A stretch of 64,000 bases of DNA from Bartonella krasnovii. Lineage in GTDB: Bacteria; Pseudomonadota; Alphaproteobacteria; Rhizobiales; Rhizobiaceae. Numbering within the stretch: the stretch's first letter is position 1; every line of letters begins with the position of its first letter. Positions 6,886 to 60,145 of this stretch are shown here, one piece after another. The notes beneath the pieces were generated by a model. It was given only the letters and a program-made list of their open reading frames with translations. It ran no database searches and was not told the origin of the DNA. The position numbers and the translations under genes were made by a program. Where the stretch lies: positions 1,781,001 through 1,845,000 of the forward strand of contig NZ_CP031844.2 in the NCBI RefSeq assembly GCF_003606345.3, written 5' to 3'.

Positions 6886-7556
6886 ACTGAAAATCCCCAT
6901 GAAGAGGACATTCTTGCCGCTGCTAAAGCGGCTAATGAACTTGAATTTATTCAAGTTTTACCGGATAGCTTGATGACAGAAGTGATACCATACTTTCTTG
7001 AAAGGCAAAACAACGCATTAGTATTGCACGTGCGATCTTAAAAATACCCCCTCTTGTTGCAGTTTGGCACCATCATTAATTTGCCAGCTCCCAATGTTGC
7101 TACAGCCCTTAGCACTTGAGACATTCCATTATAGGCATTTTAAGTCCCTTCTTTATAATTTTTATCCACACGGGCTTCCCCCACTTGTAACGTGCAAGCG
7201 AATGGTTTTGGTTGATTCAACATAAAAACAGCTTTGAAATGAGAAAATCCTACAATGTTTAGGACTCTCATCCAATATACAAAACAATGAATTATTATCA
7301 ATCAAAGCGTTGCTGCTTGATTGAGCAACATCTGCTTTAGATGCAAACAGTGAAAAGTTGGTACAACAAGCCTTAGAAGGATTGATCAAAATCGTATAAC
7401 TTTGATAATTGCTCACCGTTTGGCAATAATTTTAAAAACGGATCGTATTCTCGTGATGGATAAAGGCACCCTTGTAGAAGAGAGAGCCTATACTGAACTT
7501 GTGGCAAAAATGGTGTTTATGCTTATCTTGCAAAATTGCAATTGTCACCCGAATAA
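6886..7556 (+). pseudogene. Decayed inverted copy of the 3' end of the ABC exporter
   Basis: Read on the plus strand, this segment matches the exporter at 4416-6206 from about residue 456 to its C-terminus. Recognisable pieces are TEN..EEDILAAAKAAN, a Walker B/D-loop piece ATSALDANS, LIIAHRLA and the final ELVAKM..YAYLAKLQ..PE. Frameshifts and stops break the frame. At about 7061-7306 there is some 250 bp of unrelated sequence that interrupts the copy just before the D-loop motif. Homology continues beyond the stop to about 7630, covering the native downstream flank. It has no start or promoter of its own and cannot encode a working ATPase. Confidence 0.85.
7061..7306. other. Unrelated insertion inside the exporter pseudogene
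   Basis: About 250 bp with no match in the parent gene separate the two conserved halves of the pseudogene, between the LLL of Walker B and ATSALDANS. No terminal inverted repeats or target-site duplication are obvious, and no coding capacity is seen. Confidence 0.5.
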
Positions 7557-8527
7557 GAGATTTTAATACAAGAGCAGTATTTTTAAGGGCATAAATACCA
7601 CTCTTTACAGCCATGTTTATCAATTTAAAAGGGCTCATGGAAAAAGAGGGGCAAGAATTGAGATGTTTTTCTTCTTAAATTCTGGCTGTTCTTTTCTCTG
7701 CGTGAGAAGAAGCATTTTTTATAAAAACGCTTTTCCTTTGTGTGCAGAATATAAAATGATAGGCAAGTTAGTCTCTATGGATCATTAAGGTGTGCAAAGA
7801 GCTCTCTTCATAACAGCACTCTCATGTTGATTTATAAGAACAATTCATTGTTTTTCATGAGAAAACTTCATATCATAGGATTTTCTCATATCAACGCCCC
7901 ATAGTGAAACACACAAAATCTCTTGCTTGCACATCATAATAGGTAATCAACTAATTCGACATCTATACCCACAAAGCGAAATATTTACGTGTCAACTTTC
8001 CTTTACAGTCATTAACCAAGAGCCTTCAAAATGACCTTTTAGAAAATAGAACTAAAAGGATGAGTCATTCAAAAATCATTTTATGATATAGCTCTATCAC
8101 GAGCACCTAAAATACGCCTTTGTTGCTAAATATCCCCTTATATCGTATCAATTTTGTAGAACGCTTTAAACCCTTTACATTTAAATCAAAAAATCATAAT
8201 TGGATTATATTGCATAAAGATGTTTTCTCATTTTTCCATTTAACACACGATAACATACCATTGAGGCCCCCTGAGAAGCTTTCTCCCCTTATATCATGAC
8301 TTCATAAGCCGCGTGAAAAGGACACGATAAGCCGTTTTGGTGTCTTAAGGTCAAGGACACCGTTAAGCGGCCTATAAGACTTCCTTTGAGCTTTTAAGGA
8401 CCAAGGTCTGTTATAGTCCCTTCATTAAATGCAGCTCTAATGTCATGATTTTTGAGAACGATTATTAAGAATTTAAGAGGCTGTCCGCCTCTCATTTTGA
8501 TTTATACACAACCAAAGTACGCTCTCT
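7557..8527. other. Spacer with copied flank and one partial dispersed repeat
   Basis: The first ~75 bp copy the downstream flank of the ABC exporter (inverted). Around 7824-7870 the motif TTGATTTATAA followed by TTCATTGTTTTTCATG matches the dispersed intergenic repeat seen at 36400. The rest shows no gene. Confidence 0.5.
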
Positions 8528-8941
8528 TTATTCAGGGAGAATAAGAACATACCCTGGAGGTGCTAAACGGAATAAGAGAGCATCATACCCCCAACTAGCA
8601 GACATGCAGAAAATATAAGAAATGCCTTCACCAATTGCTAAGAGTAATGTGAACGATAGAGCGGCTTCATCTGCTGTTGCTTCGCGGCGTTGTAAAAAAT
8701 ATCCGTAAAAAAATAAAATGCACCCGATTCCACTCACCGCCCCAAAGACGCCTAATGCGGTATGAATCGGTCCACGCATGTTGAATAGGATAAGAAAAAT
8801 TGTAAAAATAAACACGCTGAATATTCCAGCGAATACCCCACGTACGATATGGCAAAATTTTCGCATCATAATTGCAGAAACGCTCTTTTCTGCGTATCGA
8901 TTTTTTTTGGTGCTTGTATTCTTAGAAGATATGCTGTCCAC
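8528..8941 (-). CDS. Small multi-pass membrane protein, unknown function
   Basis: The 137-residue product has a charged, Ser/Lys-rich N-terminal tail of ~30 residues and three to four hydrophobic segments (about 37-52, 58-80, 92-112 and a short one near the C-terminus). No family is recognised. The predicted start is GTG, with a strong G-rich ribosome site (GGGGGAG) only a few bases upstream; an internal start at the MMRKF residues is the alternative. It stands alone between long spacers. The even hydrophobic pattern suggests a real inner-membrane protein, but its role is unknown. Confidence 0.6.
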   Translation of the reverse strand: MDSISSKNTSTKKNRYAEKSVSAIMMRKFCHIVRGVFAGIFSVFIFTIFLILFNMRGPIHTALGVFGAVSGIGCILFFYGYFLQRREATADEAALSFTLLLAIGEGISYIFCMSASWGYDALLFRLAPPGYVLILPE

Positions 8942-9466
8942 AACTCCCCCCCCTCGATTTTAAAGCTAAAATGCCATGAAATTAATTTTCTATAATGATA
9001 TCATCATAAAATACAAGAAAAATTTATTCATTTTAATAAAAAAGAGGTGTTTTATTGAGATACAAATCTATCTTCTTTCGCAAGAGTTCTCCAACCCGTT
9101 CGTCAATAGAAGACCACCCCCATTGAAGAGAAAGCTATCCTGACACATAAAATCTTCATAAGCTGTATGTCTAATCCATAGAGAAACCACAACTCTCCAA
9201 TCGCCCCGCTTATCCACCTTTGTAAAACTGTAATCAAATGGATTCTGCTGATGATGAGCAATGATAACATGAAGAAGAGAAAATATCACAATATCAAACG
9301 CTTCAATATAATATCATCTTTATGATTTTTATTTAAAAAGTACGCCCTCCCTCATGAATGACAACACACTGCTGCGCATTCACGAATTTCCTTTAAAACA
9401 CCATCTTCCCTTCTTACAAACGCACCTCTCCCGCAATCTTACCTCACAATGGCACGCATAAAGACT
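8942..9466. other. Spacer with a doubtful small open frame
   Basis: A 73-codon minus-strand frame (9068-9289) has some protein-like composition, including an acidic/aromatic stretch, but has no ribosome site or recognised relative. It may be a gene remnant. Otherwise nothing is seen. Confidence 0.35.
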
Positions 9467-9974
9467 TTTAAAATATCCAATGAAAAGACCCCTCTGAGAA
9501 AGCTTTCAAATCTAAAACGCCCTCATCATTTTTATCATGATGAGGACTCCAAAATCACGCAAAAACATGCAAAATATCCGCGCATTTAGGCATAGAGCTT
9601 GTACTTCAAGCGCTGTCCTTTTCCTGTTCTTTTATCCATTGTCCTAAAGCAGCCAAATGATTCATCTGCGCACGATGACAAAATGTCTTTTGGGCAACAG
9701 CAATATTTTCATGGCAACCAGCCCATGCTTTTAAAGCAGCCGCTTGCAATGCTCGTCGATCAAGAAAAAGTCAATTTCCAAGGCAATGCCCCTAAACTAT
9801 TCATGGCAGACAAATGCGCTGTCGCTTCCTGATCAGATTGTCCGAAAGACAAGAAAAGCAATTCTTAAGAACAGCATAAGGGACCGTTTGTTTAAGCACA
9901 CGGACGGTCTTTTCAGCCACCTCTTCAACACCAGCCTTGGCGTACATCCTTATCCCCAATCACCCTATTGGGTT
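9467..9974 (-). pseudogene. Tandem partial copy of the fba 3' end
   Basis: This ~505-bp block repeats the last ~115 codons of fba and its downstream flank, in direct orientation next to the native 3' end (9975-10481). Small indels and substitutions break the reading frame. Both edges carry TTTTAAAAT: it precedes the copied flank at about 9467 and is found inside native fba at about 10477. This suggests the tandem duplication formed across a ~9-base microhomology. The copy lacks a start and promoter. Confidence 0.9.
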
Positions 9975-10020
9975 TTAAAATATCCAATGAAAAGACCCCT
10001 CTGAGAAAGCTTTCAAATCT

Positions 10021-10052
10021 AAAACGCCCTCATCATTTTTATCATGATGAGG
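10021..10052 (-). terminator. Probable terminator of fba
   Basis: A perfect 9-bp stem CCTCATCAT/ATGATGAGG with a 7-base loop lies about 60 bp downstream of the fba stop and is followed on the minus strand by GGGCGTTTTAG. The T-run is short and slightly displaced, so efficiency is uncertain. The same hairpin is duplicated at 9521-9545 in the partial copy. Confidence 0.5.
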
Positions 10053-10113
10053 ACTTCCTCAATTACACAGAAACATGCAAAATATCCGCGCATTTAGGCA
10101 TAGAGCTTGTACT

Positions 10114-11145
10114 TCAAGCACTGTCCTTTTCCTGTTCTTTTGTCCATTGTCCTAAAGCAGCTAAATGATTCATCCGCGCACGATGACAAAATGCCTTTTG
10201 CGCAACAGCAATATTTTCATGGCGACCAGCCCATGCTTTTAAAGCAGCCGCTTGCAATGCTCGTCCATAAGAAAAAGTCAATTTCCAAGGCAATGCCCCT
10301 AAACTATTCATGGCAGACAAATGCGCTGTCGCTTCCTGATCAGATTGTCCCCCAGAGAGAAAAGCAATTCCTGGAACAGCACAAGGGACCGTTTGTTTAA
10401 GCACACGGACGGTCTTTTCAGCCACCTCTTCAACACCAGCCTTGCGCGCATCCTTGCCATCAATCACCATATTGGGTTTTAAAATCATCCCCTCTAAAAC
10501 AACACGAGCTTCAAATAGTTCTTTAAAGACAGTTGTCAAAACAGCGTGTGTCACCTCAAAACAACGGGCAATGGAATGTTGACACGACGGTCCATCCATA
10601 AGCACCTCCGGCTCAACAATCGGCACAATATTGAGTTCCTGACATAAAGCAGCATAACGAGCGAGAGCTTGCGCATTTTGATTAATGGCACCTCTTGTTG
10701 GCAGCGTGTGTGCATCAATGGCAATCACCGCGCGCCATTTCGCAAAACGGGCGCCCAAAGCATAATAGTCTTTCAGCCGCTCACGGAGACCATCTAACCC
10801 TTCAGTAATTGTCTCTTGGGGAAAAGCAGCCAAGGGCTTAGCACCGGTATCAACTTTAATTCCTGGCAAAGCACCCGCATCCCGAATAAGATCCGTCAAC
10901 ATTTGCCCTGTTGATGCTTTTTGTCGAATGGTTTCATCAAATAAAATAACACCAGAGATAGCACTTTCCATAGCTTCTTTTGCGCTAAAAAGCATTTCAC
11001 GATAAGCGCGGCGGTTATCCTCATTGGACTCAACACCAATACTTTCAAAACGCTTACCAATTGTTGCAGTACTTTCATCGGCAGCCAAAATACCCTTACC
11101 AGCATGCACCAGAGAAAGTGCTATATCTTCAAGACGTTCATTCAT
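10114..11145 (-). CDS. fbaB: Class I fructose-bisphosphate aldolase
   Basis: Cleaves fructose-1,6-bisphosphate to dihydroxyacetone phosphate and glyceraldehyde-3-phosphate, or the reverse in gluconeogenesis, by a Schiff-base mechanism. The 343-residue length and motifs fit eukaryote-type class I aldolases: GKGILAADES near 16-25, the KW pair at about 136-137, and the Schiff-base lysine in LEGMILKPN (K223). The ATG is preceded by AGAGGA. It lies downstream of tkt, gap and pgk on the same strand, with ~110 bp to pgk, forming a glycolysis/pentose-phosphate cluster. The native 3' end is followed by a decayed tandem copy of itself. Confidence 0.95.
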   Translation of the reverse strand: MNERLEDIALSLVHAGKGILAADESTATIGKRFESIGVESNEDNRRAYREMLFSAKEAMESAISGVILFDETIRQKASTGQMLTDLIRDAGALPGIKVDTGAKPLAAFPQETITEGLDGLRERLKDYYALGARFAKWRAVIAIDAHTLPTRGAINQNAQALARYAALCQELNIVPIVEPEVLMDGPSCQHSIARCFEVTHAVLTTVFKELFEARVVLEGMILKPNMVIDGKDARKAGVEEVAEKTVRVLKQTVPCAVPGIAFLSGGQSDQEATAHLSAMNSLGALPWKLTFSYGRALQAAALKAWAGRHENIAVAQKAFCHRARMNHLAALGQWTKEQEKDSA

Positions 11146-13025: not shown

Positions 13026-14033
13026 CTATATTGTCTTAGCAAAAGCCACCGCCGTATCACTCATACGGTTAGAAAAGCCCCATTCATTATCATACCAAAC
13101 GAGAACACGACAGAGCTTACCATCAATCACTTTGGTTTGATCATTATGAAAAATCGCTGAATGCGGATTATGATTAAAATCACAACTCACAAGCTTTTCT
13201 TCTGTCATATCCAAAATGCCCTTTAGAGGACCTCGTGCAGCAGCCGCAATAGCTGTATTAATTTCTTCAATTGTTGTGGAACGCTGAGCCGTAAATGTCA
13301 AATCAACCACAGAAACATTAGGGGTTGGAACACGAATGGACACCCCATCAAGCAATCCCTTTAATTCTGGCAAAACCAACCCCACAGCTTTTGCCGCTCC
13401 GGTTGATGTAGGAATCATCGAAAGAGCAGCCGCACGCGCACGATAAAGATCACGATGCATGGTATCTAAAACGGGCTGATCCCCCGTATAAGAATGGATT
13501 GTTGTCATAAAGCCCCTTTCAATACCCACCGTGTTATGCAAAACTTGTGCAACGGGCGCCAAACAATTGGTTGTACAAGAGGCATTTGAAACAATACGAT
13601 GCTCACGGCTTAAAGACTGATGATTAACCCCATAAACAACCGTAAGATCTGCACCCTCTGAGGGAGCGGAAACCAGAACACGCTTTGCCCCTGCATCCAA
13701 ATGTGCCTTTGCTTTATCACGCGCCGTAAAAATGCCCGTACATTCCAACGCGATATCGATATCCAAATCTTTCCAAGGCAATTGTGCTGGATCACGCTCT
13801 GCACAGACCTTTATTAAACCAGTTCCCACATCAATGGCATCGCCCACCACCTTAACATCCTCAGGAAAACGGCCATGAACTGAATCATAGCGCAACAAAT
13901 GGGCATTTGTTTCCACCGATCCCAAATCATTAATTGCAACCACTTCAATATCTTTTCGTCCACTTTCTATCAGTGCCCGTAAAATATTGCGTCCAATACG
14001 ACCAAACCCATTAATTGCAACACGAACTGTCAT
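13026..14033 (-). CDS. gap: Glyceraldehyde-3-phosphate dehydrogenase, type I
   Basis: Oxidises glyceraldehyde-3-phosphate to 1,3-bisphosphoglycerate with NAD. The 335-residue product has the Rossmann motif NGFGRIGR (8-15) and the catalytic SNASCTTN with C153, followed by HSYTGDQ and the conserved STGAAKAVG. The start at 14033 (ATG, with GAGGAAAC upstream) is chosen over an upstream in-frame start at 14072 because the family begins directly with the Rossmann strand. An acidic D36 after strand 2 suggests NAD preference. It lies 182 bp from tkt and is followed by a terminator. A decayed fragment of a gap-like gene lies at 59887. Confidence 0.97.
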
Positions 14034-14215
14034 TTCACATGTTTCCTCATCTAATTTTTTAAAGCATAACATTTAAAACACAACAAATGGGCATTTTCCA
14101 ATCCCAAACCATAAATTCCCAAGACATCAATATCTCGATAAATTAATCACTTACCCACAACACTGCACAGAGTATAATACCCGACAACCACCCCCGCTCA
14201 TGACAACACACACTG

Positions 14216-17955: not shown

Positions 17956-18040
17956 CGTGTTTTCACAATGGAAGATCAAAGCAATAATCGGTCTATTGGG
18001 ACGCTCACGAGAAGCACGCAGACCCGTTGTTTCTAAAACC
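17956..18040 (-). pseudogene. Short decayed copy of an internal pyk segment
   Basis: About 85 bp match 18301-18385 inside pyk almost base for base (for example ATAATCGGTCTATTGGGACG), in the same orientation. It encodes part of the C-terminal domain (RERPNRPIIAL region). The copy lies 40 bp beyond the native pyk stop and has lost the intervening coding sequence, consistent with a partial tandem duplication followed by a deletion. Confidence 0.85.
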
Positions 18041-18080: not shown

Positions 18081-19517
18081 TCAAATCCCCTTCGTTCCAT
18101 CTGGAGAGACAGAGGCAATACGCAAAAGGTTTGTTGCACCAGGCGTTCCAAGGGGAACACCGGCTGTCACAAGGAAGCGATCACCTCCTTGGCAAAAACC
18201 TTCCTGAAAGGCAATGATAGCTGCACGATCAACCATATCCTCTAAATTCTTCGCATCCGCAGTAACCACACAATGAAGCCCCCAAACGAGTGCCAAACGC
18301 CGTGCTGTTTCCACAATGGGCGATAAAGCAATAATCGGTCTATTGGGACGCTCACGAGAAGCGCGCAGACCCGTTGTTCCTGAAGCCGTATAGGCAACGA
18401 TAGCGGCAAGTGAAAGTGTTTCAGCAATCTGACGCGCTGCAAGAGAAATCGCATCCGTCCCGGTTGATTCTGGTGTTGGATGTTGTGCTCCAACCTGAGC
18501 AGCATAAGTTTGATCTTGTTCAATTTGCCGTGCGATTTTATCCATCATAAGCACCGCTTCTTCTGGATAACGACCAGAAGCAGATTCAGCCGACAACATC
18601 ACCGCATCTGTTCCAGCATAAACCGCAGTCGCCACATCCGATACTTCTGCACGCGTTGGCACAGGAGATGTGATCATTGACTCGAGCATTTGTGTTGCTA
18701 CCACCACCGGTTTTCCAGCTAAACGGCAAGCTTTGATCAGCTCCATTTGAATCGCAGGAACCCTTTCCAGAGGCATTTCCACCCCGAGATCTCCGCGTGC
18801 AATCATAATACCATCAGAAACGTCAATAATCTTTTCTATATGTTCCAAGGCTTGAGGCTTTTCGATTTTAGCCATCAAAGACACTTTGCTTTTTGTTAAC
18901 CGGCGCACCGCTATAATATCTTCTGGACGTTGAATAAAAGAAAGGGCAACCCAATCAACAGGCTGCTGTAACAGAGCCTGAAGATCAGCCTTATCTTTTA
19001 AGGTCATCGAATCAAAAGGCAAAATTGTATCCGGAAAACTCACACCTTTTCGATCAGAAATACGGGTTCCAGCAACCACACGACACTGAACAAAATGATC
19101 ATCACACACTTCAGCACGCAGTTCTAACTTTCCATCATCAATTAACAAGCGATCCCCTGGTTTAATCGCTGAAAAGACATCCTCATGAGGGAAAAAAACA
19201 CGCTGTGCATCGCCAGCCACATCGCGATGATCTAACGTAAAGCTTTGCCCGACACGCAAATCTTCTTGACCTTTGTCAAAACAACCAATACGCAGTTTTG
19301 GTCCCTGAAGATCCACCAAAATACCAATGGGGCGCCGAACCGTTTTTTCAACCTCCCGTATTGACTTAACCAAATCGCCCAGCGTGTTACGATCCGTATG
19401 ACTCATATTAAGGCGAAAAACATCTGCCCCTGCCCTAAAAAGCTTCTCAATCATTACACGAGAAAAAGAAGAAGGACCAAGAGTCGCAATAATTTTTACT
19501 TTACGGGCCCGTTTCAC
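18081..19517 (-). CDS. pyk: Pyruvate kinase
   Basis: Converts phosphoenolpyruvate and ADP to pyruvate and ATP. The 478-residue protein begins KVKIIATLGPSS and shows the substrate motif FRLNMSH, the catalytic lysine motif MAKIEKPQA, the metal-binding IARGDLGVE and the TRAEVSDVA helix, followed by the C-terminal allosteric-type domain. The start is GTG at 19517, overlapping the stop of the upstream DUF1036 gene as GTGA, so translation is probably coupled. The two genes form an operon. A decayed copy of an internal 85-bp segment lies just downstream. Confidence 0.96.
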   Translation of the reverse strand: MKRARKVKIIATLGPSSFSRVMIEKLFRAGADVFRLNMSHTDRNTLGDLVKSIREVEKTVRRPIGILVDLQGPKLRIGCFDKGQEDLRVGQSFTLDHRDVAGDAQRVFFPHEDVFSAIKPGDRLLIDDGKLELRAEVCDDHFVQCRVVAGTRISDRKGVSFPDTILPFDSMTLKDKADLQALLQQPVDWVALSFIQRPEDIIAVRRLTKSKVSLMAKIEKPQALEHIEKIIDVSDGIMIARGDLGVEMPLERVPAIQMELIKACRLAGKPVVVATQMLESMITSPVPTRAEVSDVATAVYAGTDAVMLSAESASGRYPEEAVLMMDKIARQIEQDQTYAAQVGAQHPTPESTGTDAISLAARQIAETLSLAAIVAYTASGTTGLRASRERPNRPIIALSPIVETARRLALVWGLHCVVTADAKNLEDMVDRAAIIAFQEGFCQGGDRFLVTAGVPLGTPGATNLLRIASVSPDGTKGI

Positions 19518-20528: not shown

Positions 20529-21084
20529 TAATATTGATAACATTGGAAATTTTCTTAAAGAAAATGGAAAGAAACGCATGAATACACAAAAATTCTGCCC
20601 ACTGTGGGTAGTTTGTGCAAAATAACACAAAATTTATATAACTTGTGACAAGACAACTTCACAGGATGTATAACATTGCAACAGCCCTCACATTTGAAAG
20701 GATTCATGAAAAGCGCATTTTTACTTCTTATTCTGCAATCATTGTATCCATAGGGGCCTCTTTACCCAGAGGAGCGTTTTATCTATACGGGTCTCCCCTT
20801 GTAAGCCAACCCCACACTTGTGCATGACAGCAAAGCATTTTTGAGTCCTTCAACCTAAAAACAGATGTGAAATTGAAAAACAATGAATGGTGATGATCAA
20901 TCAACTCATTCTCTAGGATAAAAAAATATTTAAAGGGATCAGCAGCAGAAATTCGCTAAACAAAGGTCTGAATTGTTTACAGAAGAGAGATGGTTAAGGA
21001 TCTTCATCTTGTTAAGATCGTGAAAAATTCGGCATATTTAGACATCTGGCATAAAGCTCTTTAATAGAGCTTTATTCAAATCTT
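20529..21084. other. Spacer between gapR and rimJ
   Basis: About 555 bp between convergent genes. Small open frames have no protein character. No strong terminator is seen. A short CCCAC/GTGGG inverted repeat occurs near 20600 but is too tight to form a good loop. Confidence 0.4.
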
Positions 21085-26892: not shown

Positions 26893-27275
26893 GGCTTTTT
26901 TATCTGCGACAATCTTGATTCTTTTCTGTCTTTAATCACGCCCTCCCCCCAAATATTTGTAAATGCAACCAGCTTCATCACGCCCTACCACCCCCCCCCC
27001 GCATCTATATCCCTTAAAAAAGCCTATCGCGGTTTATATAGCGTGAAGATCTTCTACAATGAACTTGTATCAAGAAGAGCAGAGCGCAATTTCTGCACAG
27101 ACCATCTCAAAGAAACATCACCCTCCAATCTCCCTCTGCTCATAAAGACGGTTCACTGCACCTCAAAAGGAGGCATATGGCTTGATAAAGCAAACTGAAC
27201 CCTCAATCAGAGCTTCATCATGCCATACGCCCCCGCACCTAAGCACTCTTCTTCCCCTCACAAAGTCTTCACGGC
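26893..27275. repeat. Spacer containing a diverged tandem copy of the rpoH 3' end
   Basis: The stretch at about 26970-27110 resembles 27216-27345 in order and orientation. Matching pieces are AGCTTCATCA, a C-rich run, TTTATATAGCGTGAAGATCTTCT against TTATATATCGTAAGCGTCTTCT, and AGAGCAGAGCGCAATTTCTGCA against AGAGCAGAACGCAATTTCTGCA. The copy covers the last ~20 codons of rpoH plus the downstream flank. It cannot be expressed as a protein. Confidence 0.75.
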
Positions 27276-28187
27276 TTATATATCGTAAGCGTCTTCTGAA
27301 TGAACCGTAAGGAGAGCAGAACGCAATTTCTGCAAAGCTCGTGCTTCAATTTGACGCACGCGTTCTTTCGAAATTCCTAATCTTTCACCCAAGACTTCTA
27401 AAGTCGCCCCCTCTTCATTTAAGCGACGAAAGCGAATAATTTCCAGCTCCCTTTCGTTGAGAATTTGCAACGCATCGTAAAGCCATTGCGTACGGCGTTG
27501 ACCATCAATCACTTGCTCAATTAAAGCATCAGGCAGCGGACTCTCATCAACCAAAACATCCATCTTCGCAATGGGATTATCACTGTTTTCAGAAACAGAA
27601 ACACTCAAAGAATTATCCGAACTGGAAAAACGAAAATCCATTGTTTCCACATCGCGTACAGAAACACCGAGTTTTTCAGCGATTGTGCGAAAAATATCCT
27701 GCTTTGATAAAGCACTATCATCTTGCACCAGTTTTGCACGCAAACGCCGCAGATTAAAGAAAAGTGCTTTTTGCGAAGAACTGGTTCCCCCTCGAACAAT
27801 TGACCAGTTTCGCAAAATATAATCTTGAATAGAAGCCCGTATCCACCATGTTGCATAAGTTGAAAAACGCACTTCCCGATCAGGTTCAAAACGTGCAGCA
27901 GCTTCCAACAGTCCCACATATCCTTCTTGTACCAAATCCCCTAAGGGCATTTTGAAACGTTTAAAGCGGTTTGCAATAGCAATCACCAAACGCATATGAG
28001 CTGCGGCAATTTGATGCATGGCATCATCATCGCGTTTATCTTTCCATCGCAGAGCCAAATCATGCTCTTTTTGTCGTTCTAGATAAGGTGCTTGCATAGC
28101 AGAACGCATCATATTACGTCCTAAGCTTTTGTCTGCATCGCTATAATTTTTGCTGCTTTTATAAACAGCATTTGAAAGATTACCCAT
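27276..28187 (-). CDS. rpoH: RNA polymerase sigma-32 factor
   Basis: Heat-shock sigma factor that directs RNA polymerase to chaperone and protease promoters. The 303-residue protein carries sigma region 2 (about 55-125, DLVQEGYVGLLEAAARF and the aromatic ATWWIRASIQDYIL). The RpoH box QKALFFNLR is at 139-147 and region 4 lies near the C-terminus with an HTH around LGERLGISKERVRQIEARAL. The ATG has an AAGGGG ribosome site. Rhizobiales often have two RpoH paralogues; only one is in the window. A decayed copy of its 3' end lies directly downstream. Confidence 0.96.
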   Translation of the reverse strand: MGNLSNAVYKSSKNYSDADKSLGRNMMRSAMQAPYLERQKEHDLALRWKDKRDDDAMHQIAAAHMRLVIAIANRFKRFKMPLGDLVQEGYVGLLEAAARFEPDREVRFSTYATWWIRASIQDYILRNWSIVRGGTSSSQKALFFNLRRLRAKLVQDDSALSKQDIFRTIAEKLGVSVRDVETMDFRFSSSDNSLSVSVSENSDNPIAKMDVLVDESPLPDALIEQVIDGQRRTQWLYDALQILNERELEIIRFRRLNEEGATLEVLGERLGISKERVRQIEARALQKLRSALLTVHSEDAYDI

Positions 28188-30374: not shown

Positions 30375-30716
30375 TTGACCCACGTCGTAACCGACAACTG
30401 CATTCACTGCAAATATACCGATTGTGTTGAAGTTTGTCCTGTTGATTGTTTTTATGAAGGTGAAAATATGTTGGTCATTCATCCTGATGAATGCATCGAT
30501 TGCGGTGTTTGTGTACCAGAATGCCCAGCAGAAGCCATTATACCTGATACAGAACCAGGACTCGAAAAGTGGCTAGAACTTAATCTTCATTATGCAAACA
30601 AATGGCCTAATCTGACAACCAGAAAAGACCCCCTTCCTCAAGCCAAAGAAATGGATGGCGTTCCAAACAAATTAGAAAAGTATTTTTCAGAAAATCCAGG
30701 AAGTGGAGAAGAGTAA
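30375..30716 (+). CDS. fdxA: Ferredoxin FdxA (7Fe/8Fe type)
   Basis: A small electron-transfer protein with two iron-sulfur clusters. The 113-residue product has the N-terminal motif [17 protein letters not shown] and a second set [12 protein letters not shown], typical of Azotobacter-type ferredoxin I, followed by a C-terminal extension. The family starts MxxVVTDNC, which points to the TTG at 30375. GGAG lies 7 bases upstream of it, while an in-frame TTG at 30369 would be too close to that site. It is 21 bp after the helicase remnant and 304 bp before carD. Confidence 0.93.
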
Positions 30717-31605: not shown

Positions 31606-31637
31606 TACACTCTTTCATAACAACAGGATATTTTGAT

Positions 31638-31667
31638 AAAACCAGCTTTTTGCTGGTTTTATTTTTT
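31638..31667 (+). terminator. Rho-independent terminator of carD
   Basis: A 9-bp perfect stem AAAACCAGC/GCTGGTTTT with a 5-T loop, followed by ATTTTTT, begins 32 bp after the carD stop. Confidence 0.85.
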
Positions 31668-32422
31668 ATCATCCTCTGTATTCTCAAGGATAAAATTTCT
31701 TAAAGCACCAATCAACACTCTAGCTTTTCGAAAAATTGTACTCGCCACCGTTTCATGCGCTTTACTTCACATAGCAAGCTCATTGACTAATCATCATAAT
31801 ACATCATTTTTATATTCAATCATCAGTACGAATACAGAAAGATGCTTTCCCATTAAACCATTCAAATGACTCCTTCACACATCCTAATAATTCAACATAT
31901 TGATTTATAAAGATAATTTATAGTTTTTTTTCTTATATTGAATGCTCCCTGAATATCGTAAAGTTTTTTCGTTTCCAATCTATTGCGTGTTCAATCAATT
32001 AAAAACACTCGCTTACCCGTTACAAACGGAGAGGTTATGTAAGTAAAAACTTTACAAAAAAGGCATGTCTATTATGAACCATTTCAAGAGTCAAAAGCTA
32101 TTCGCACACCCACGAGCTCACAAAGTGTATGACAGTGCTAGCCTGCACTTTTATGCAGCTAAAGGTAAATAAATTTTATATTATTTCATGGAACTTGTTA
32201 TGCCTTTCACGAGAGCACTGTCGCAAAATAGGTTGAAAAGTACGTTGCAAGAGGTTCTTAAAAAAACACATAAGATGATGTTACAATACAAAGATATCCC
32301 TTTTGGAGTGTTTTATTTTACATGATGGTTGGTAATCTCATCAAAGAACAAGAAAAACACACCCCACAATAGAATCATCTTCTTACGGAAAAATCTTACC
32401 CTCTATTCTAGGAAGCAGAAAA
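31668..32422. other. Spacer holding a dispersed intergenic repeat and a tiny open frame
   Basis: From about 31893 to 32095 lies one copy of the dispersed repeat marked by ATATTGATTTATAA and, ~145 bp later, ACGGAGAGGTTATG. A 32-codon open frame (32074-32172) follows, but nothing supports its translation. No other gene is visible. Confidence 0.4.
31893..32095 (+). repeat. Dispersed intergenic repeat, copy at 31.9 kb
   Basis: Shares an ordered series of motifs with 36401-36600: ATTGATTTATAA at the left, CTGAATAT in the middle, ACGGAGA(G/T)G..ATG and GTAAAAAC.TTACAA at the right, then ATGTCT(A/C)TTATG. The ACGGAGA-ATG part looks like a ribosome site and start codon, but here the frame closes immediately (ATG TAA). 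It may be the duplicated 5' region of an unknown gene. Confidence 0.6.
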
Positions 32423-33014
32423 TGCACAACTAAAGAGCGTGCATTCACCAAGAAGTCAAAGGAAACCTAAGCATAGAAGAGAGATAAAATACTAAAGTCT
32501 TAAACCACGAAAACGGAACATCCACGATACATTCCCGTTTTTTAGATCAATAGCTTCTTTTCAAATCAATGGCATGAGGGCAACGCAAGGTTACCTCAAC
32601 AACCATCTTAAAGTGCAAATGCACAACTAAAGAATGCGCATTCACCAAGAAATCAAAAGAAACCTAAGCATAGAAGAGAGATAAAATACTAAAGTCTTAA
32701 ACCACGAAAACGGAACATCCACGATACATTCCCGTTTTTTAGATCAATAGCTTCTTTTCAAATCAATGGCATGAGGGCAACGCAAGGTTACCTCAACAAC
32801 CATCTTAAAGTGCAAATGCACAACTAAAGAGCGTGCATTCACCAAGAAGTCAAAGGAAACCTAAGCATAGAAGAGAGATAAAATACTAAAGTCTTAAACC
32901 ACGAAAACGGAACATCCACGATACATTCCCGTTTTTTAGATCAATAGCTTCTTTTCAAATCAATGGCATGAGGGCAACGCAAGGTTACCTCAACAACCAT
33001 CTTAAGGCAGAAAA
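32423..33014 (-). repeat. Three 197-bp tandem copies of the rpmF 3' end and flank
   Basis: Repeat units begin at 32423, 32620 and 32817 (period 197 bp), and the same unit start recurs at 33015 just downstream of native rpmF. Each unit contains a copy of the last ~33 codons of rpmF (around ATCCACGATACATTCCCG), with an extra T that shifts the frame and a shared ~18-bp insertion. The three copies are nearly identical to each other and less similar to rpmF, so one diverged copy was probably amplified later. Confidence 0.92.
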
Positions 33015-33085
33015 TGCACGACTAAAGAATGCGCATTCACCAAGAAATTAAAGGAAACCTAAGCATAGAAGAGAGATAAAAACAC

Positions 33086-33265
33086 TCAATCCTTAACCAC
33101 TAAAACAGAACGTCCACGATACATTCCCGTTTTTAGATCAATATGATGAGGGCGACGCAACTCACCAGAATTTTTATCCTCGATATAAGTCGGCGCCTTC
33201 AGAGCATCAGCCGAACGGCGCATGCCCCTCTTCGCTGGAGAGGTTTTTCGTTTAGGTACAGCCAT
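33086..33265 (-). CDS. rpmF: 50S ribosomal protein L32
   Basis: A 59-residue protein beginning [20 protein letters not shown], the unmistakable L32 start. It continues with [21 protein letters not shown] and [10 protein letters not shown]32 is a late-assembling large-subunit protein. The alphaproteobacterial form lacks the zinc-binding CxxC pairs, as here. The ATG has a GGGAG site at 9-base spacing. The gene is divergent from ispA with a 438-bp spacer. Three tandem copies of its 3' end lie immediately downstream. It is short enough to be missed by length-limited gene calling. Confidence 0.95.
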
Positions 33266-38046: not shown

Positions 38047-38956
38047 CAACTCCTCAAATTTTTAAAATCTGCACGATCAGTCATCATTGACATTGACTTT
38101 CTCCGCGCTTCAAAGGACAAACACACACTACCCACCAATCTCAACAGATTGCTTAAAGTTCCATCTGTTCCCCCTGATGCAATTTAAGCTCATAAGCGAG
38201 AGGTCCATTTCATAGATGCCTCAGACAAATCCTCCCACGCCTGCTCACATTCATAGTTTTACACTTGGTTGCTCCAAAAAGAAACTGAAATCAGACAAGG
38301 ACAAAATCACATTTTTTAAGTAGCACCCTATACCCTTACATCCACGTCATCGAAAAACAATATTTTACAACACAATAGATAACACTTATCACAGCACAAT
38401 TTTTAAAAATGCGCGAAAGGTACCACCTAATTAAGACAACATATTGATTTATAATAATCTCTTTTTTATAAATTTGAATAAAAAAACTTAAACATCGTCA
38501 GCTTCTCTCATTTCAGATTTGTTCATCATCAGTCAAAGCTATGCCCCTTACACACTTAAAAGCGCCCATGGAGATAAAACTAAAAAAGTAAAAATACTTG
38601 AAGAACTGTCTCCAAAAGCAATCGCAATACTTTGAAACAAGGACAAGATAATCAAGATAATGAAGCACCCAACTTGATCCCTTTATAAAATAATGATGGG
38701 GATGCACATCGAACTTGATAGCCCTCACGAGTAATTATTCTTTGCAGAAGATTTTACCGTATATCCTTCACCCCCCTCATTATGAAATGAACGCAAGCCC
38801 GTTAAGAAATGCTTCATTAAACCCAAACGCTAAATTTTCACCTTACCCCCCAGCCGCATAATCAATGCAACCTTTCAAATTTTAAGCCGTTATAGCAAAA
38901 CCCCAAATAAAATTCCAACGATCATGCAACAATTTAACACATGAAGGAGTCTACAG
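38047..38956. other. Spacer with a partial dispersed repeat
   Basis: About 900 bp, AT-rich. A partial copy of the dispersed repeat (ACATATTGATTTATAATAATC) is at 38435-38465. No gene is recognised. Confidence 0.4.
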
Positions 38957-50095: not shown

Positions 50096-50511
50096 TCAAG
50101 CTTTCTTGGATAGTTTTACGCCACACGAGCGCCTCATCTTGTAACGTTCAAAAGGTAAAAAACTTAATAAATCAATGTCTTGTACGAATAAGGGCGATGC
50201 CTCTGTTCCTCCCATAACTTCCTCCCATAAGCAAGATATTTTTCTCCCGTAGTGCGGCTTGATGGAGTGCCCGCGCATAATATTGTAGCGACTTGACGCT
50301 GTTGTGCAGACACAATCAAAGAGGCAAGACGCCCATAGGAGGGAAAATAATAATGCTGACGTGCTGTAATCTCCCGTGTGTAAAAATCTTCTGGTTTGCA
50401 TGAAAGTAAAGCTTTTATGAGCGGATAATCCGGTTAATAGGTTTGCAATACCTAAACTTTCCAATCCCACCCGCCCTGCTCTTCCAGCCACTTGAGAGAG
50501 AAATTTGATTT
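50096..50511 (-). pseudogene. Second, more decayed tandem copy of the priA 3' end
   Basis: Continues the tandem series. It matches priA from the GRAGRVGLESLG region through about the SAQQR segment and then diverges, with several indels and stops. It shares the odd left edge (CTTGAGAGAGAAATTTG) of the first copy, showing that both derive from the same duplicated unit. Confidence 0.85.
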
Positions 50512-50976
50512 TTAAAAAAAGCTTTGCGGATCAATATCAATTTGGACCCGAACGGAACTGGGCATTTTGGGGCTATTGCTCAGCATTGCCCGAATGAACC
50601 CTTGTATATCAAAAGAGCGCTGACCTTGCAGTAAAAGCCGAAAACGATAACGCCCCCGAACCAGAGCTAAAGGCGCTTCTGCGGGTCCCATAACTGAGAT
50701 ATTTTTTTCCCGCGGTGCGGCTTGACGCAGGGCCCGCGCATAATGTTGTAGCGACATGACGCTGTTGTGCAGACACAATCAAAGAGGCAAGACGCCCATA
50801 AGGGGGCAAATGATACTGTTGACGTGCTGTAATCTCCCGTTTGTAAAAATCCTCTGGTTGGCATGAAAGTAAAGCTTTTATGACCGGTTGATCCGGTTGA
50901 TCGGTTTGCAATAATCCTAAACTTTCCAATCCCACCCGCCCTGCTCTTCCAGCCACTTGAGAGAGAAATTTGATTT
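50512..50976 (-). pseudogene. First tandem copy of the priA 3' end
   Basis: A 465-bp direct repeat of the last ~155 codons of priA, including the stop codon. It is nearly identical to the native end (RVQIDIDPQSFF is fully preserved), but a small rearrangement near 50745-50757 shifts the frame. It begins inside the helicase C-domain motif (GRAGRVG), so it has no motor or start codon. Confidence 0.93.
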
Positions 50977-53172
50977 TTAAAAAAAGCTTTGCGGATCAAT
51001 ATCAATTTGGACCCGAACGGAACTGGGCATTTTGGGGCTATTGCTCAGCATTGCCCGAATGAACCCTTGTATATCAAAAGAGCGCTGACCTTGCAGTAAA
51101 AGCCGAAAACGATAACGCCCCCGAACCAAAGCTAAAGGTGCTTCTGCAGGTCCCATAACCGAGATATTTTTTTCCCGCGGTGCGGCTTGACGGAGTGCCC
51201 GCGCATAATGTTCCGCGGCTTGACGCTGTTGTGCAGACACAATCAAAGAGGCAAGACGCCCATAAGGGGGCAAATGATACTGTTGACGTGCTGTAATCTC
51301 CCGTGTGTAAAAATCCTCTGGTTGGCATGAAAGTAAAGCCTTTATCACCGGATGATCTGGTTGATAGGTTTGCAATAATCCTAAACTTTCCAATCCCACC
51401 CGCCCTGCTCTTCCAGTCACTTGGGAAAGCAGCTGGAAGGTACGTTCACTGGCGCGTAAATCGCCATTGGCAAGACCAAGATCAGCATCAATCACCCCCA
51501 CCAGAGAGAGCTTGGGAAAATGATGTCCTTTAGCGACCAACTGTGTCCCAATAATAATATCCACATCGCCATTGGCAATGGCTTGCAATTCGCTTCGCAA
51601 CTGCCCAATCCCCCCTTTGAGATCTGTTGAAAGAATCAATGAGCGCGCTTGAGGAAAAATCCCTTTTGTTTCTTCTGCAATTCTTTCCACACCTGGTCCA
51701 CAAGCTACGAGATGATCTAATGTTCCACATTCAGGACAGGCTTCTGGAAGGGATTGATGATAGCCACAATGATGGCATTTCAGTTGCCCTTGCGCGCGAT
51801 GTTCGACCAACCAACTTGAACAATCGCTACAATGAAAACGATGTCCACACACTCGACATAAAGTTAAAGGCGCATAACCACGGCGATTAAGAAAAAGCAG
51901 CGCCTGCTCACCTTTCTCAAGTGTTTGTTTTAAAGCCCTTTCAAGGGTAAAAGAAATAAAGCGTCCCTTTTGCACTCCTCCTTGACGCATATCAATGACC
52001 CGCAACTGTGGAAGGGAAACTTCTTTAAAACGGGAGGGTAAATGCACCTTTTGATAACGCCCTTTTAAAACATTGGCTTGGCTTTCAATCGACGGTGTTG
52101 CTGAGGATAAGATAACAGGAAAATGCTCAAAAGAGCCCCGCGCAACAGCCATATCACGCGCATGATAAAAAATGCGCTCTTCCTGTTTATAAGCGCTATC
52201 ATGCTCTTCATCGACAACAATCAAGCCAAGCGCATGAAAGGGAAGGAAAAGTGCCGAACGAGCCCCCGCAACAACACGCACCCGCCCTTCTGCAACTTGC
52301 CGCCAGACACGTTCTCTACGACGTGGTGTCAAATCGGAATGCCATTCTGCTGCCGCAGCGCCAAAGCGTGCATAAAAACGATCTAAAAATTGCTGTGTTA
52401 AAGCAATTTCTGGCAATAAAATTAAAACTTGGCTACCCCCTTTGAAGGCTTGAGCAACCGCTTCAAAATAAACTTCTGTCTTTCCAGAGCCCGTCACACC
52501 ATCGAGCAAAAAAACTTGAAACTGAGAAGATAAAACACCTTCCCGCAACAGTTTTGCTGCTTCACTTTGTGCCCCCTGCAACTGAGGAGGACAAAAGTCA
52601 GGATCGGGCATACCAACAAGATCAGGAGCAGGAACTTTAACATCTTCAAAAATTCCTAGTGCTTTTAAACCTTCAACAACAGAAACAGAAGTTCCAGCCG
52701 CATGTGCAAGACCAGAACGTGTCCATATCTTCTCACTGCGCACCAATTCCAAAACCCGTGACCGCGCTGGTGTGAGACGTTCCACATCCCCCCCACAATA
52801 GCGCAATCCCAGCATCTGCGCTTCCGGCTCTAAAGCAGCCGGTACAGACAAAACCAATCGTGCAACAAGACCAAAAGGCGTCATGGTATAACGGCTAACA
52901 AACCGCAAAAATGCAATCATTTCTGGCTTTAATGGGGGGCAATCAAAAACATGTAAAAGAAAGCGTAATTTTTCACGCGCTACCGAAGCAGTTCCTTGCC
53001 CATCCTTTGTTTTCTCTCCAACCTCCACAACAAAACCGCAAAGCTCACGCCCCATCACCGGAACCCGAACAAAAGAACCAATTTCCACTTTCATAGAAGA
53101 CGGAACTTTATAACTATAAGCATGCGCAACAGGAAGAGGCACCAAGACAGATACGACCTTTTCCTCTATCAT
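50977..53172 (-). CDS. priA: Primosomal protein N' (replication restart helicase PriA)
   Basis: A 3'-5' DNA helicase that reloads the replisome at stalled forks. The product has 731 residues: the N-terminal 3'BD, a winged-helix domain, Walker A GVTGSGKTEV (near 223-232), DEEHD (motif II), the zinc-binding region with paired cysteines (CRVCGHRFHCSDC, CHHCGYH, CPECG), and GRAGRVG (motif VI). The ATG at 53172 is preferred (AAGGTGA upstream); the longest frame would start with TTG at 53196. Two partial copies of its 3' end follow in tandem. It lies near the atp operon and fsa, a common Rhizobiales neighbourhood. Confidence 0.96.
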   Translation of the reverse strand: MIEEKVVSVLVPLPVAHAYSYKVPSSMKVEIGSFVRVPVMGRELCGFVVEVGEKTKDGQGTASVAREKLRFLLHVFDCPPLKPEMIAFLRFVSRYTMTPFGLVARLVLSVPAALEPEAQMLGLRYCGGDVERLTPARSRVLELVRSEKIWTRSGLAHAAGTSVSVVEGLKALGIFEDVKVPAPDLVGMPDPDFCPPQLQGAQSEAAKLLREGVLSSQFQVFLLDGVTGSGKTEVYFEAVAQAFKGGSQVLILLPEIALTQQFLDRFYARFGAAAAEWHSDLTPRRRERVWRQVAEGRVRVVAGARSALFLPFHALGLIVVDEEHDSAYKQEERIFYHARDMAVARGSFEHFPVILSSATPSIESQANVLKGRYQKVHLPSRFKEVSLPQLRVIDMRQGGVQKGRFISFTLERALKQTLEKGEQALLFLNRRGYAPLTLCRVCGHRFHCSDCSSWLVEHRAQGQLKCHHCGYHQSLPEACPECGTLDHLVACGPGVERIAEETKGIFPQARSLILSTDLKGGIGQLRSELQAIANGDVDIIIGTQLVAKGHHFPKLSLVGVIDADLGLANGDLRASERTFQLLSQVTGRAGRVGLESLGLLQTYQPDHPVIKALLSCQPEDFYTREITARQQYHLPPYGRLASLIVSAQQRQAAEHYARALRQAAPREKNISVMGPAEAPLALVRGRYRFRLLLQGQRSFDIQGFIRAMLSNSPKMPSSVRVQIDIDPQSFF

Positions 53173-54160
53173 ATTTGAATTCACCTTTTTAACCAATCTA
53201 TGATCTCCCCCCTTATCTACAATCCTTTTGTCTAGATTGTCTTGTCTACGATTATCTTGAGCACCAACAGGTCCACAGCTTATCTTTAAACACTCTTATA
53301 AAATTCATTGTGAGCTTCAATCATTCTTCCCTTTCACAATAAGCTTCTCACAAGTATCCTTCTTAATACGCATTTCATCACAAAAACACCAATCTCATCC
53401 TCTTAGCAAACAAACAACGCTATTCTCCAGTGCAAATAAAACCCATCACGATTAAGCCTTCAACACAACATGATCACTGCATATCACTACACTCCTTAGC
53501 GATCCCATAATTGTAATTTCATGCCCAACATAAACACTTTTATTTTCTTTCTACCTCATATCTCAACTTATCATCAACATATTGATTTATAAAGATAAAT
53601 CATTTTTACATATCGTAATAAAAACGCTCAATATGAGAATTTTTTTATTATAATAAATTCTTTAAACGTAGAAAAACTTCACGTGTAAAACGCATATCTT
53701 CTTTAATGGTACTTTACGACACAAAAATATCCATTCACTGACATGCGACAATTGAAATAAAATGTCCCATAAGATAAGGAAAGCATCTTATAAAATTCTC
53801 AAATATCAAGAGCAATCACCAATGGAAAATGAGCAAGGGGTGTGACAATGCTCGCTTATTTTCATAAATATAAAGCAATCACTATGCAAAGATGCCACTA
53901 CACAAAAATGCTCATGCACAATTCCTACGTCTTATGACAAGCAACGCCATGAAATAGACATAGAAAAAACATTAAATCTTTCTTTACAGAAAGCAAATGC
54001 AGATGAACACTATGGCATCTTTTTTTATTAGCATCATGGCATTTCTATTTTTATAGAGATATTCATTCTTCCTCTTGCTTTTGCTGTCAACAATAGCGCA
54101 TAACAAAAAAGCAAGGCAAGACAAGATAAAATGTGAAAAGCTAAAAGGAAGAGGTTAGAG
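53173..54160. other. Divergent spacer between priA and fsa with a dispersed repeat copy
   Basis: Nearly 1 kb with no gene. A copy of the dispersed intergenic repeat occupies about 53574-53730 (ACATATTGATTTATAAAGATAA at the left, ACGTGTAAAAC...CTTTAATGGTAC at the right). Confidence 0.45.
53574..53730 (+). repeat. Dispersed intergenic repeat, copy at 53.6 kb
   Basis: The left end is nearly identical to 31893 (ACATATTGATTTATAAAGATAA). The right end resembles 36540-36590 (TAAAAAC/TAAAAC, then ATGTCTCTTATGGTAC against ATCTTCTTTAATGGTAC). The middle is shorter than in the other copies. Confidence 0.5.
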
Positions 54161-58072: not shown

Positions 58073-58231
58073 GGTACTCTTTTAATAAAACTAAACCAAA
58101 AACTTGTTTTATTATGCTTGACCATGGATTAACCTCATCGTCAACATTTTCGTGCAATATTTCCCTAAGTATTTTATAAAAATAACCAACCTTTGAATAA
58201 AACTTGAATAAAAACGGTAAAGCACAAAAAT

Positions 58232-58921
58232 ATGGATACACAAACGCTCCCCCAAGCTTCCTCCACTAAAGCATTGCAAAACCTTCAAAAAGACATTGCG
58301 ACACTATGCCAAGAGCTACAACGCCCCGTGGAAGAAGTTGAACTTATTGCTGTTTCAAAAACTGTTTCTACTGATGATATACGTCCCCTTTTGCAAGCCG
58401 GTCACTCTCAATTTGCAGAAAATCGTGTGCAAGAAGCAACACAAAAATGGCTGGAGTTACGTCAACAATTTAAAAATATTAAACTTCATCTCATCGGTCC
58501 TCTACAATCCAATAAAGCCGCTGAAGCTGTTAAAATTTTTGATGTCATTCAAACGGTTGATCGTGAAAAAATAGCCAAAATTTTGGCAGAAGAAATGCAA
58601 AAACAACAAAAACATCTTCCCTGCTATGTTCAGGTCAATATTGGCTTAGAACCGCAAAAGAGTGGTGTTGCCCCGCAAGAAGTAATCCCTTTTGTTTCTC
58701 AATGCAAAAACAACTATGGGCTTGATATCATTGGTTTGATGGCCATCCCCCCTGTCGAGGAAAATCCTGGACCCTATTTCGCCCTCCTAGCAAAACTCGC
58801 CAAACAAGCCGCTCTTCCAAAGCTTTCCATGGGCATGTCTAATGACTTTAAAACAGCCCTACAATTTGGCTCGAATGTCCTTCGCATTGGCTCTGCTTTA
58901 TTTGGCAAGCGCCCTGTATGA
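58232..58921 (+). CDS. YggS family pyridoxal phosphate homeostasis protein
   Basis: A PLP-binding TIM-barrel protein of the YggS/PROSC family, with no known enzymatic activity, that buffers PLP and affects amino-acid metabolism. The 229-residue protein has the PLP lysine in IAVSKTV (K43), FAENRVQEA, HLIGPLQSNK, and the C-terminal LSMGMSNDF and RIGSALFG motifs that bind the phosphate. The ribosome site is weak. It is divergent from leuS with a 160-bp spacer. Confidence 0.92.
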   Translation: MDTQTLPQASSTKALQNLQKDIATLCQELQRPVEEVELIAVSKTVSTDDIRPLLQAGHSQFAENRVQEATQKWLELRQQFKNIKLHLIGPLQSNKAAEAVKIFDVIQTVDREKIAKILAEEMQKQQKHLPCYVQVNIGLEPQKSGVAPQEVIPFVSQCKNNYGLDIIGLMAIPPVEENPGPYFALLAKLAKQAALPKLSMGMSNDFKTALQFGSNVLRIGSALFGKRPV

Positions 58922-59886
58922 AGCTATTTTTCTTCATATAAATTCCCCTTAAAAACTTTACAAACAAACAAAAAACAACAGACATGAAAAATATTTCTCT
59001 CAAGCTCACTAAAAGCGCAACTCTAGTAGAAAAGTTCCCGTTTCTATTTCTCCCTATAAGATGAGACAAAGGAGCAAAAAACTGCTCTTCCTAAACTTCT
59101 CATCAGCACATCCTTAACCCATAACATGACTTCCACACAGCTCTGCTTTTCTTTTATATTCCCACACCTTAGCTCTACTTCGCCCCCTTCTGATCCCACG
59201 CTACCAAAAGCATCTTTAAAAAAGAGCTCCTGAATATAAAAACAAAATAATAATAATAATAGGTGCGTTGCGCATAAATGAAAAAAACTGTCGTGGAATA
59301 AATAATCGCAAAAGAACATTCAAAACGATTATCGTAATGGTTTCCATTAAAAAACACGAATTCTCTTAATTCCCTCAACACGCGTAAACAATTTCTCCAC
59401 ATACCAATAACGTAAAGTAGGCCAAAAGAAGCTTAGGTCTATCAACATAGCACTTCAATTCTCTTACTAAGTCACTTGAGCACAATAAGCACCTCAAATG
59501 CCAAAGCGAACATAAAAAAACAGTGCTAAACAACATGATAGCAATCATAAAGACAACGCAATAGCGTAGAGATTTTCTCCACACTGCAAGAAGCAAGAGG
59601 CAAGGTGTGACCAACAATCGCTAAAAAAGGCATTAACCCCATTCATACAGACAAACAATAACAACGCAACGGAGTTCAATTATAAATATGTTTAAAAGAA
59701 AATACCAGGTGCATACTTTTTCTAAATTTAAACTTTAATTAAGAAAAAGTATTGATACTATTCTTTATATTTTTAAAGTATTATAAATGATATGTTTATC
59801 TATACATAATATACTTATTAATTATAAAGTATTTTTATTTTTAAAATTTAATTTTGTGATACTGTTTTTAATATAGATAATTCAAG
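58922..59886. other. Long AT-rich spacer
   Basis: Nearly 1 kb with no recognisable gene. Several short minus-strand frames are hydrophobic but lack protein character. From about 59690 the sequence is extremely AT-rich. Confidence 0.4.
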
Positions 59887-60145
59887 TTGGTGCCCATTGC
59901 ACAAATTTTGCATAACACCGTGGGCATCGAAAGGGGCTTTATAACAACAGTCCATTCTTATACGGAGGAGAGAATTAAAACAGGCAGTTCAAGTTTATCA
60001 CATGCTTCACATGGCACAACAAGTTTCTGGGGAGAATATAATACTGGTGGTTATATCTAGAGTTCAAGCAAAGCTGCACTGTTTGGTACTGATGCAACAG
60101 CGGTAGGCGTTGGATTGGCAAAAGTTGTTTTTCCCGAAGTATCAA
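59887..60145 (+). pseudogene. Fragment of a gap-like gene
   Basis: The first ~84 bp (59887-59970) translate to [18 protein letters not shown] and TTVHSYTE. They match native gap from about residue 158 and are close to its DNA (only about ten mismatches by eye). A middle part with unrelated sequence follows (Ser/Gly-rich). At about 60075-60145 a stretch ending GLAKVVFPE weakly resembles GLVLPE of gap. There is no start and an in-frame stop lies between, so it is a dead fragment, about 46 kb from native gap. Confidence 0.75.

Follow-up and report, generated by a model that had tools for sequence, protein, structure and literature searches.

Why do complete housekeeping genes in one stretch of a Bartonella chromosome lie beside partial copies of themselves? 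The stretch, hereafter the window, is the whole of the 64 kb analysed (G000:C1:1781001-1845000; G000 is the source genome, 2.19 Mb in two contigs). The original prediction, made from the window alone, named six genes (rpmF, priA, fba, pyk, rpoH and an ABC exporter) with 3'-end copies and proposed a continuing tandem duplication filtered by selection. Its observation is partly confirmed and its interpretation partly supported; the pattern is not confined to the 64-kb segment, since in our sample of the same genome it spans ~0.5 Mb around a locus of run-off replication (ROR). This confinement to the ROR zone is a stronger regularity than the excess of 3' copies, and it is invisible from the window alone. 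The protein encoded by fba in the window is 94% identical to its counterparts in B. tribocorum, B. queenslandensis and B. massiliensis, which identifies the source genome as a close relative of those species.

Partial gene copies cluster around the ROR locus

ROR denotes a phage-derived origin; in B. henselae and B. grahamii, the chromosome is amplified over several hundred kb around it (Berglund 2009, PMC2697382; Guy 2013, PMC3610622). Its landmark in G000 is a phage exonuclease gene (PHROG exonuclease) at ~1.672 Mb of contig C1, near the centre of the copy-rich segment and 109-173 kb from the window. Orthologues of this gene were found in 16 of the 20 genomes searched, at 72-86% identity, and the match in G004 (1395210-1395887) agrees with the B. 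australis ROR exonuclease at 1395225-1395860 (Guy 2013, Table 2, PMC3610622). The other four genomes (G014, G021, G052 and G055), with no match at E 1e-10, appear to be of the bee type, since they are highly divergent and one locus is named as B. choladocola. A single portal-family search for the gene transfer agent (GTA) cluster gave no match, so the GTA was not placed, and small-subunit ribosomal RNA was not found by genome search, so rRNA landmarks were not used. The GC content is 40-41% in stretches at 1.65-1.84 Mb of G000, compared with 35-39% in the others from 1.33 to 2.12 Mb; it lies above the ROR-region values at 0.76-0.93 Mb and reaches 41% at 1.28 Mb.

To sample G000, 40 evenly spaced 20-kb chromosome stretches were combined with the window (864 of 2158 kb), and each open reading frame (ORF) of at least 150 aa was compared with 2.5 kb on either side. 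Four further genomes with the ROR gene (G013, G036, G051 and G004) were represented by ten stretches near it and ten far from it each, 'near' meaning within 285 kb of the exonuclease gene, and G021, in which the gene was not found, by 20 stretches spread over the genome. The same rules served for all 141 stretches and their 1696 ORFs, and a gene was counted if a 3' copy lay downstream of it or a 5' copy lay upstream.

In G000, G013, G036 and G051, which together contributed 2064 kb, 33 of the 37 genes with partial copies lie near the ROR gene, in 884 kb. The step is significant in each of three genomes (per-gene Fisher tests): G000 has 12 such genes near (284 kb) and 2 far (580 kb; P = 2e-5), G013 has 7 and 0 (200 kb each; P = 0.003), and G036 has 11 and 2 (P = 0.008). 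It has the same direction in the fourth, G051 (3 and 0). Pooled over the four genomes and expressed per noncoding kb, the contrast is 33 in 290 kb near and 4 in 278 kb far (P = 1.3e-6). With the discovery genome left out, the counts are 21 and 2 in 600 kb of total sequence each (binomial, ~7e-5). Density per 100 kb in successive distance bins is 3.8, 5.6, 4.4, 1.9 and 3.0 inside 285 kb, and then 0.5, 0.3 and 0.3. The 400 kb of G021 contain a single event.

Accessory gene arrays aside, nearly all partial copies of G000 fall at 1.44-1.97 Mb. Besides the window genes, they involve fpr-like, histidine-kinase-like and rcdA-like genes ('-like' marking genes that fall short of the curated cut-off), one gene with no family assigned, the gene for 5-formyltetrahydrofolate cyclo-ligase (a 5' copy), murA, fumC and holA. 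Two rows lie outside this segment, a 3' copy of a family-less gene at 0.65 Mb and a 66%-identical upstream 5' copy at 1.35 Mb. Paralogue arrays were excluded, that is, 114 genes with full-length or large-ORF neighbours (61 in near stretches, 48 in far ones and 5 in G021); this rule removed murA at locus L148, where a copy is visible by eye, and rpmF was not counted because it is shorter than 150 aa. Inverted copies stand outside the 3'/5' count (one row in G000 and one in G036, the latter alongside a 5' copy). The totals of 33 and 4 also omit, as belonging to neither class, two genes with downstream 5' pieces ('down5') far from the ROR gene in G013 and, near it in G051, two 'up3' genes and one 'down5' gene; one further 'down5' piece near the ROR gene in G051 is part of a gene already counted.

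Gene ends, gene starts and repeats outside genes

The original prediction held that no 5' portion is copied. This exclusive bias is refuted: in the window itself, nucleotides 120-180 of gap, the GAPDH gene, are copied at 14081-14135, and 5' copies upstream of gap occur in 23 of 61 genus genomes, as one to four pieces (four in a single genome). A moderate 3' bias is nevertheless likely. Near the ROR gene, 24 genes have 3' copies and 9 have 5' copies (P = 0.014), or 20 and 8 if the window is left out (P = 0.036); tightening the filter to 60 nt and 75% within 1 kb gives 19 and 8 near (P ~0.05) and 2 and 0 far. Collapsed by orthology, the genes form 26 families, 20 with only 3' copies, 5 with only 5' copies and one, priA, with both (21 versus 6 distinct genes, P = 0.006). 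Counts across species are not independent. Equal numbers of 5' and 3' fragments genome-wide had been named as an outcome that would count against the bias; in our genome samples, the only place where this was tried, the numbers are unequal.

Across the 61 genus genomes, individual genes differ in the end that is copied. Copies of the 3' half of pyk lie downstream of the gene in 23 (one of them 3.8 kb off), with no upstream 5' copy, and 3' copies of fba occur in 15, the matches in G035 and G054 having been disregarded because a contig edge or a broken gene made them ambiguous. For priA, 3' copies were found in 18 genomes and 5' copies in 2; an apparent 5' copy in G005 proved to be the gene's own 5' part past an alignment gap and was dropped. 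After a unit has formed, the same gene end is reused. In eight of the 61 genomes (G005, G009, G015, G016, G033, G045, G050 and G059), the nucleotide search for pyk gave nothing at E 0.001, although fba and gap do match.

Selection against promoter-bearing 5' fragments, the second part of the earlier interpretation, was not demonstrated; the clear 5' units reach just 25-114 bp upstream. Two clear 5' arrays, of gap in G051 and of priA in G036, extend only 25-30 bp upstream of the called start codon, which is probably too short for a promoter. The unit of the cyclo-ligase 5' array extends 114 bp upstream; at L148:9437-10148, 15 kb from the ROR locus, three to four 213-bp units each comprise these 114 bp and the first 98 nt of the gene.

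Direct repeats outside genes are concentrated in the zone as well. In the same four genomes (884 kb near, 1180 kb far), local direct repeats that avoid ORFs of at least 150 aa altogether occur 35 times near and 6 times far, and repeats with partial overlap 42 and 6 times, in a count that includes paralogue arrays and takes ORFs shorter than 150 aa as noncoding (small-ORF arrays such as L130 and L120). Inside such ORFs there are 18 near and 13 far, so that per kb they are less than twice as common in the zone, and copies inside genes are in short supply there. This distribution points to a process acting together with purifying selection on coding sequence, rather than to gene 3' ends being special.

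The loci around fba give a wider comparison. In seven Bartonella (L003-L009, 128 kb) there are 19 events, with 3' copies at 13 genes and 5' copies at 6. No copies were found in 63 kb of bee-type fba loci, and the fba loci of 68 other Hyphomicrobiales (1349 kb) contain no 3' copy, two 5' copies and three inverted ones. In B. tribocorum and B. queenslandensis (L003 and L004, near 8430-8520), a 5' copy lies upstream of the 1245-nt ORF next to fba; the same survey gave no such row for the window.

Complete genes and their copies in the window

Copies in the window were checked by self-alignment (self-BLAST) and a six-frame motif scan. The gene-only E-values of the copies range from 2e-7 (rpoH) to 8e-159 (fba), with 0 for priA, and thus place the copies beyond chance. 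As had been predicted, the complete genes survive, all six being open frames. The claim of 3'-end copies just downstream holds for rpmF, fba, pyk, rpoH and priA; it fails for the ABC exporter, whose copy sits upstream in inverted orientation. Features are on the reverse strand (-) unless marked +.

The fba gene (class I fructose-bisphosphate aldolase, NF033379 above cut-off) occupies 10114..11145, and self-alignment places a tandem array of two ~506-bp units of its 3' end at 9466..10490. These units (9466-9985 and 9973-10490) are 94% identical, each comprising the last 377 nt of fba and ~141 nt of flank. The 9-mer TTTTAAAAT is common to the unit borders in G000; this 9-bp homology compares with mostly 0-2 shared bases at random points, fba being the sole array resolved to the base. 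The priA gene (50977..53196; PriA_C, PriA_3primeBD and DEAD) overlaps a 3'-end array of 2.6 units of 464 bp at 50223..51429, found by self-alignment, with the distal unit truncated. The 59-aa ribosomal protein L32 gene rpmF (33086..33265) was recognised in the six-frame scan by an L32 motif, and its ends were counted by hand from the translation; its array (32415..33143) holds 3.7 units of 197 bp, made of the last 58 nt of rpmF and flank. Together with fumC, the rcdA-like gene and the cyclo-ligase gene elsewhere in G000, these three have abutting direct copies of constant period, 197-506 bp.

The pyk and rpoH remnants no longer have such a period, and the inverted ABC exporter copy is not of this kind. 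Beside pyk (pyruvate kinase, 18081..19517, NF004886 above cut-off), an 83-bp copy of 18306-18387 (nt 1131-1212, 90% identical) at 17958..18040 is the remnant of a ~346-bp 3'-end unit. A complete sigma-70-family gene (27276..28187; Sigma70_r2 and Sigma70_r4), putatively the rpoH of the original prediction, is accompanied at 26971..27100 by a copy of its last 62 nt plus flank (74% identical to 27211-27337). The complete gene for an MsbA-type ABC exporter (4416..6206; NCBIfam TIGR02204 above cut-off, self-BLAST) has its split copy at 6878..7635 (+; pieces 6878-7055 and 7310-7635, by self-alignment), which represents the last ~437 nt and ~96 nt of downstream flank at 74-81% identity.

The gap gene (13026..14072, TIGR01534 above cut-off) contributes two fragments. 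The copy of nucleotides 120-180 at 14081..14135 lies directly upstream of the gap start (79%, E 2e-8). The fragment that had been noticed elsewhere was located 46 kb from gap, at 59887..59969 (+); it is not a 3' end but an inverted, dispersed copy of gap-internal nucleotides 511-593 (13480-13562, 89%), and occurs in G000 alone among the 61 genus genomes. It lies inside an open frame at 59887-60060 whose other residues look unlike GAPDH by eye (region 59887-60200), and several gene pieces may be joined in this frame as a chimera.

That duplication continues, as originally proposed, is supported by units of ~170-690 bp, by copies at all stages of decay and by variation between species. The pyk unit ranges across species from one remnant to three full units plus remnants, its copies beginning at nt 1128-1134 in 12 genomes and at exactly 1131 in seven; priA copies begin at nt 1768-1775 in eight. 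In a priA tree with 7 of 21 inner branches weak, the copies of G049 and G039 and one of those of G000 cluster with their own gene, G032 groups with G054, and G017, G035 and G046 group with the distal G000 copy, groupings which indicate an inherited duplication followed by re-duplication or conversion within single species. Among the gene-end arrays whose units were compared, the one with the most units is at L179:15424-17164 (G036), where a 290-bp unit from a gene's 3' end is repeated six times at 96-98% likeness.

A dispersed family of small repeats lies between longer ORFs of the window in both orientations (31893-32087 and 36400-36593; pieces ~69-100% alike), with shorter kin at 7185-7305, 7823-7897, 20874-20905, 38437-38523 and 53574-53625. 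No RNA family was detected in the window at Rfam gathering thresholds. A common plasmid source was considered and dropped for the part searched, 30600-38200 (7.6 kb), which has no near match in the plasmid collection.

A phage-derived origin as candidate cause

Copies lie almost only within ~285 kb of a domesticated phage origin, which suggests that the origin makes its neighbourhood prone to duplication. On balance we lean towards a zone of local duplication, roughly ±285 kb around the phage-derived ROR origin, in which run-off replication is probably the cause and selection the filter. Tandem duplicates of short segments (~0.1-1.5 kb) are far commoner inside the zone than elsewhere. In the proposed mechanism, extra forks from the ROR origin would run off or stall, and tandem copies would then arise where synthesis slips or switches template between short direct repeats. 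Selection would remove copies inside genes, and the ~3-to-1 predominance of 3' copies would follow because copies at gene starts, where they shift or double the site of translation initiation, would be thinned and those at gene ends tolerated. The proximal copy keeps its homology to the intact gene, so that arrays could expand, contract and partly re-homogenise while distal units decay. The copies themselves would need no function.

Several results weigh against this account. The main counter-evidence is G004, a B. australis-like genome that has the ROR gene and yet shows no copies near it or far from it (200 kb each); lower ROR activity outside lineage 4 would reconcile it, the lineage labels being presumed ones, with priA identity of at least 80% to the window as a guide. 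The fba loci of B. bacilliformis and B. melophagi likewise contain no copies in 42 kb under the same rule, and near versus far alone is not significant in G051 (Fisher per gene, P = 0.10). The 285-kb border was drawn after the data of G000 had been viewed, and density steps at this border, whereas published amplification declines gradually. Gene orientation relative to ROR forks has no effect on 3' copies (14 head-on and 10 co-directional, with 255 and 211 background genes); simple head-on collisions are thus unsupported, and transcription-replication collision was rejected as the source of the 3' bias. The composition of the repeat count described above also tells against it, and the ROR zone is a known high-plasticity zone with secretion-system genes, where other causes co-vary.

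Duplication might instead be uniform, its products being kept in the zone thanks to long, weakly constrained intergenic DNA. Over the four genomes, the noncoding share is indeed higher near the ROR gene (290 of 884 kb) than far from it (278 of 1180 kb), but an approximately eightfold excess remains per noncoding kb, and the longer noncoding DNA may itself result from duplication; we regard tolerance in place of rate as unlikely. The original model, in which uniform tandem duplication meets strict selection against promoter-bearing 5' fragments, draws on the 3' excess among distinct genes, but copies are not uniformly distributed, 5' copies exist in the window and widely at gap, and the clear 5' units extend no more than 25-114 bp upstream; its strict form is refuted, and the model as a whole seems to us highly doubtful. 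Somewhat less doubtful, though still improbable, is the GTA as cause, whereby 14-kb fragments packaged preferentially from the zone recombine imprecisely and leave partial tandem copies: the zone is over-represented in GTA particles (PMC2697382), but the units adjoin one another in direct order and, at 170-690 bp for the most part, are not fragment-sized.

Collapsed or expanded repeats in the assemblies are a very improbable source. Contigs end at fba copies in some drafts (G019, G032 and G035), but the comparison with related genomes that had been proposed as a check recovered like unit borders in independent assemblies (pyk in 12 genomes, priA in eight), and diverged copies cannot be assembly duplicates. 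Integrative elements favour gene 3' ends, and they or insertion sequences targeting such ends could leave attachment-site duplications. To this idea we give next to no credence, as the units abut at fba, priA and other genes, are hundreds of bp long and repeat up to six times, and arrays outside long ORFs cluster too; between the abutting fba and priA copies there is nothing, neither element nor integrase. Reverse-transcribed 3' ends were ruled out by reasoning, given that the copies include downstream flank and lie in tandem.

If run-off replication is indeed the cause of the duplication zone, GTAs and run-off replication, studied so far for gene exchange, would have a further, new effect, a local mutational cost or benefit borne by the host chromosome. 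We suggest, tentatively, that the domesticated phage origin may act as a regional mutator, its extra non-productive forks raising the rate of small tandem duplications over about half a megabase, with the partial copies as a fossil record of past ROR in lineage-4-type Bartonella. Partial copies would then be a cheap marker, readable from sequence alone, of the lineages and chromosomal sites at which run-off replication has been active. They also form a natural data set on how selection treats duplications according to the part of the gene affected.

In bacteria generally, short direct repeats can give rise to tandem duplications when replication slips or switches template between them. The Bartonella copies share with this mechanism their adjacent direct units and the 9-bp repeat at the fba borders, and differ in that, across several genomes, they gather in a single zone of the chromosome.

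The closest parallel in place is the high-plasticity zone of ROR and the Bartonella GTA (BaGTA; Berglund 2009, PMC2697382; Guy 2013, PMC3610622), which has the same landmark, the ROR exonuclease orthologue, and the same scale of several hundred kb. The excerpts consulted from these accounts deal with amplification, packaging, a GC gradient, imported genes and recombination, and do not describe clustered partial-gene tandem copies; nor did titles and abstract openings in open-licence PMC yield an earlier report of partial gene copies clustered in the ROR zone. The 236 pseudogenes of B. grahamii, given in the same excerpts as mostly remnants of full-length genes (PMC2697382), may include such partial copies. 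Within the genus, the variable-number tandem repeat (VNTR) loci of B. henselae used in multiple-locus VNTR analysis (MLVA; BHV-A to -E, PMC2687025) are, like the gene-end arrays, tandem arrays of variable copy number.

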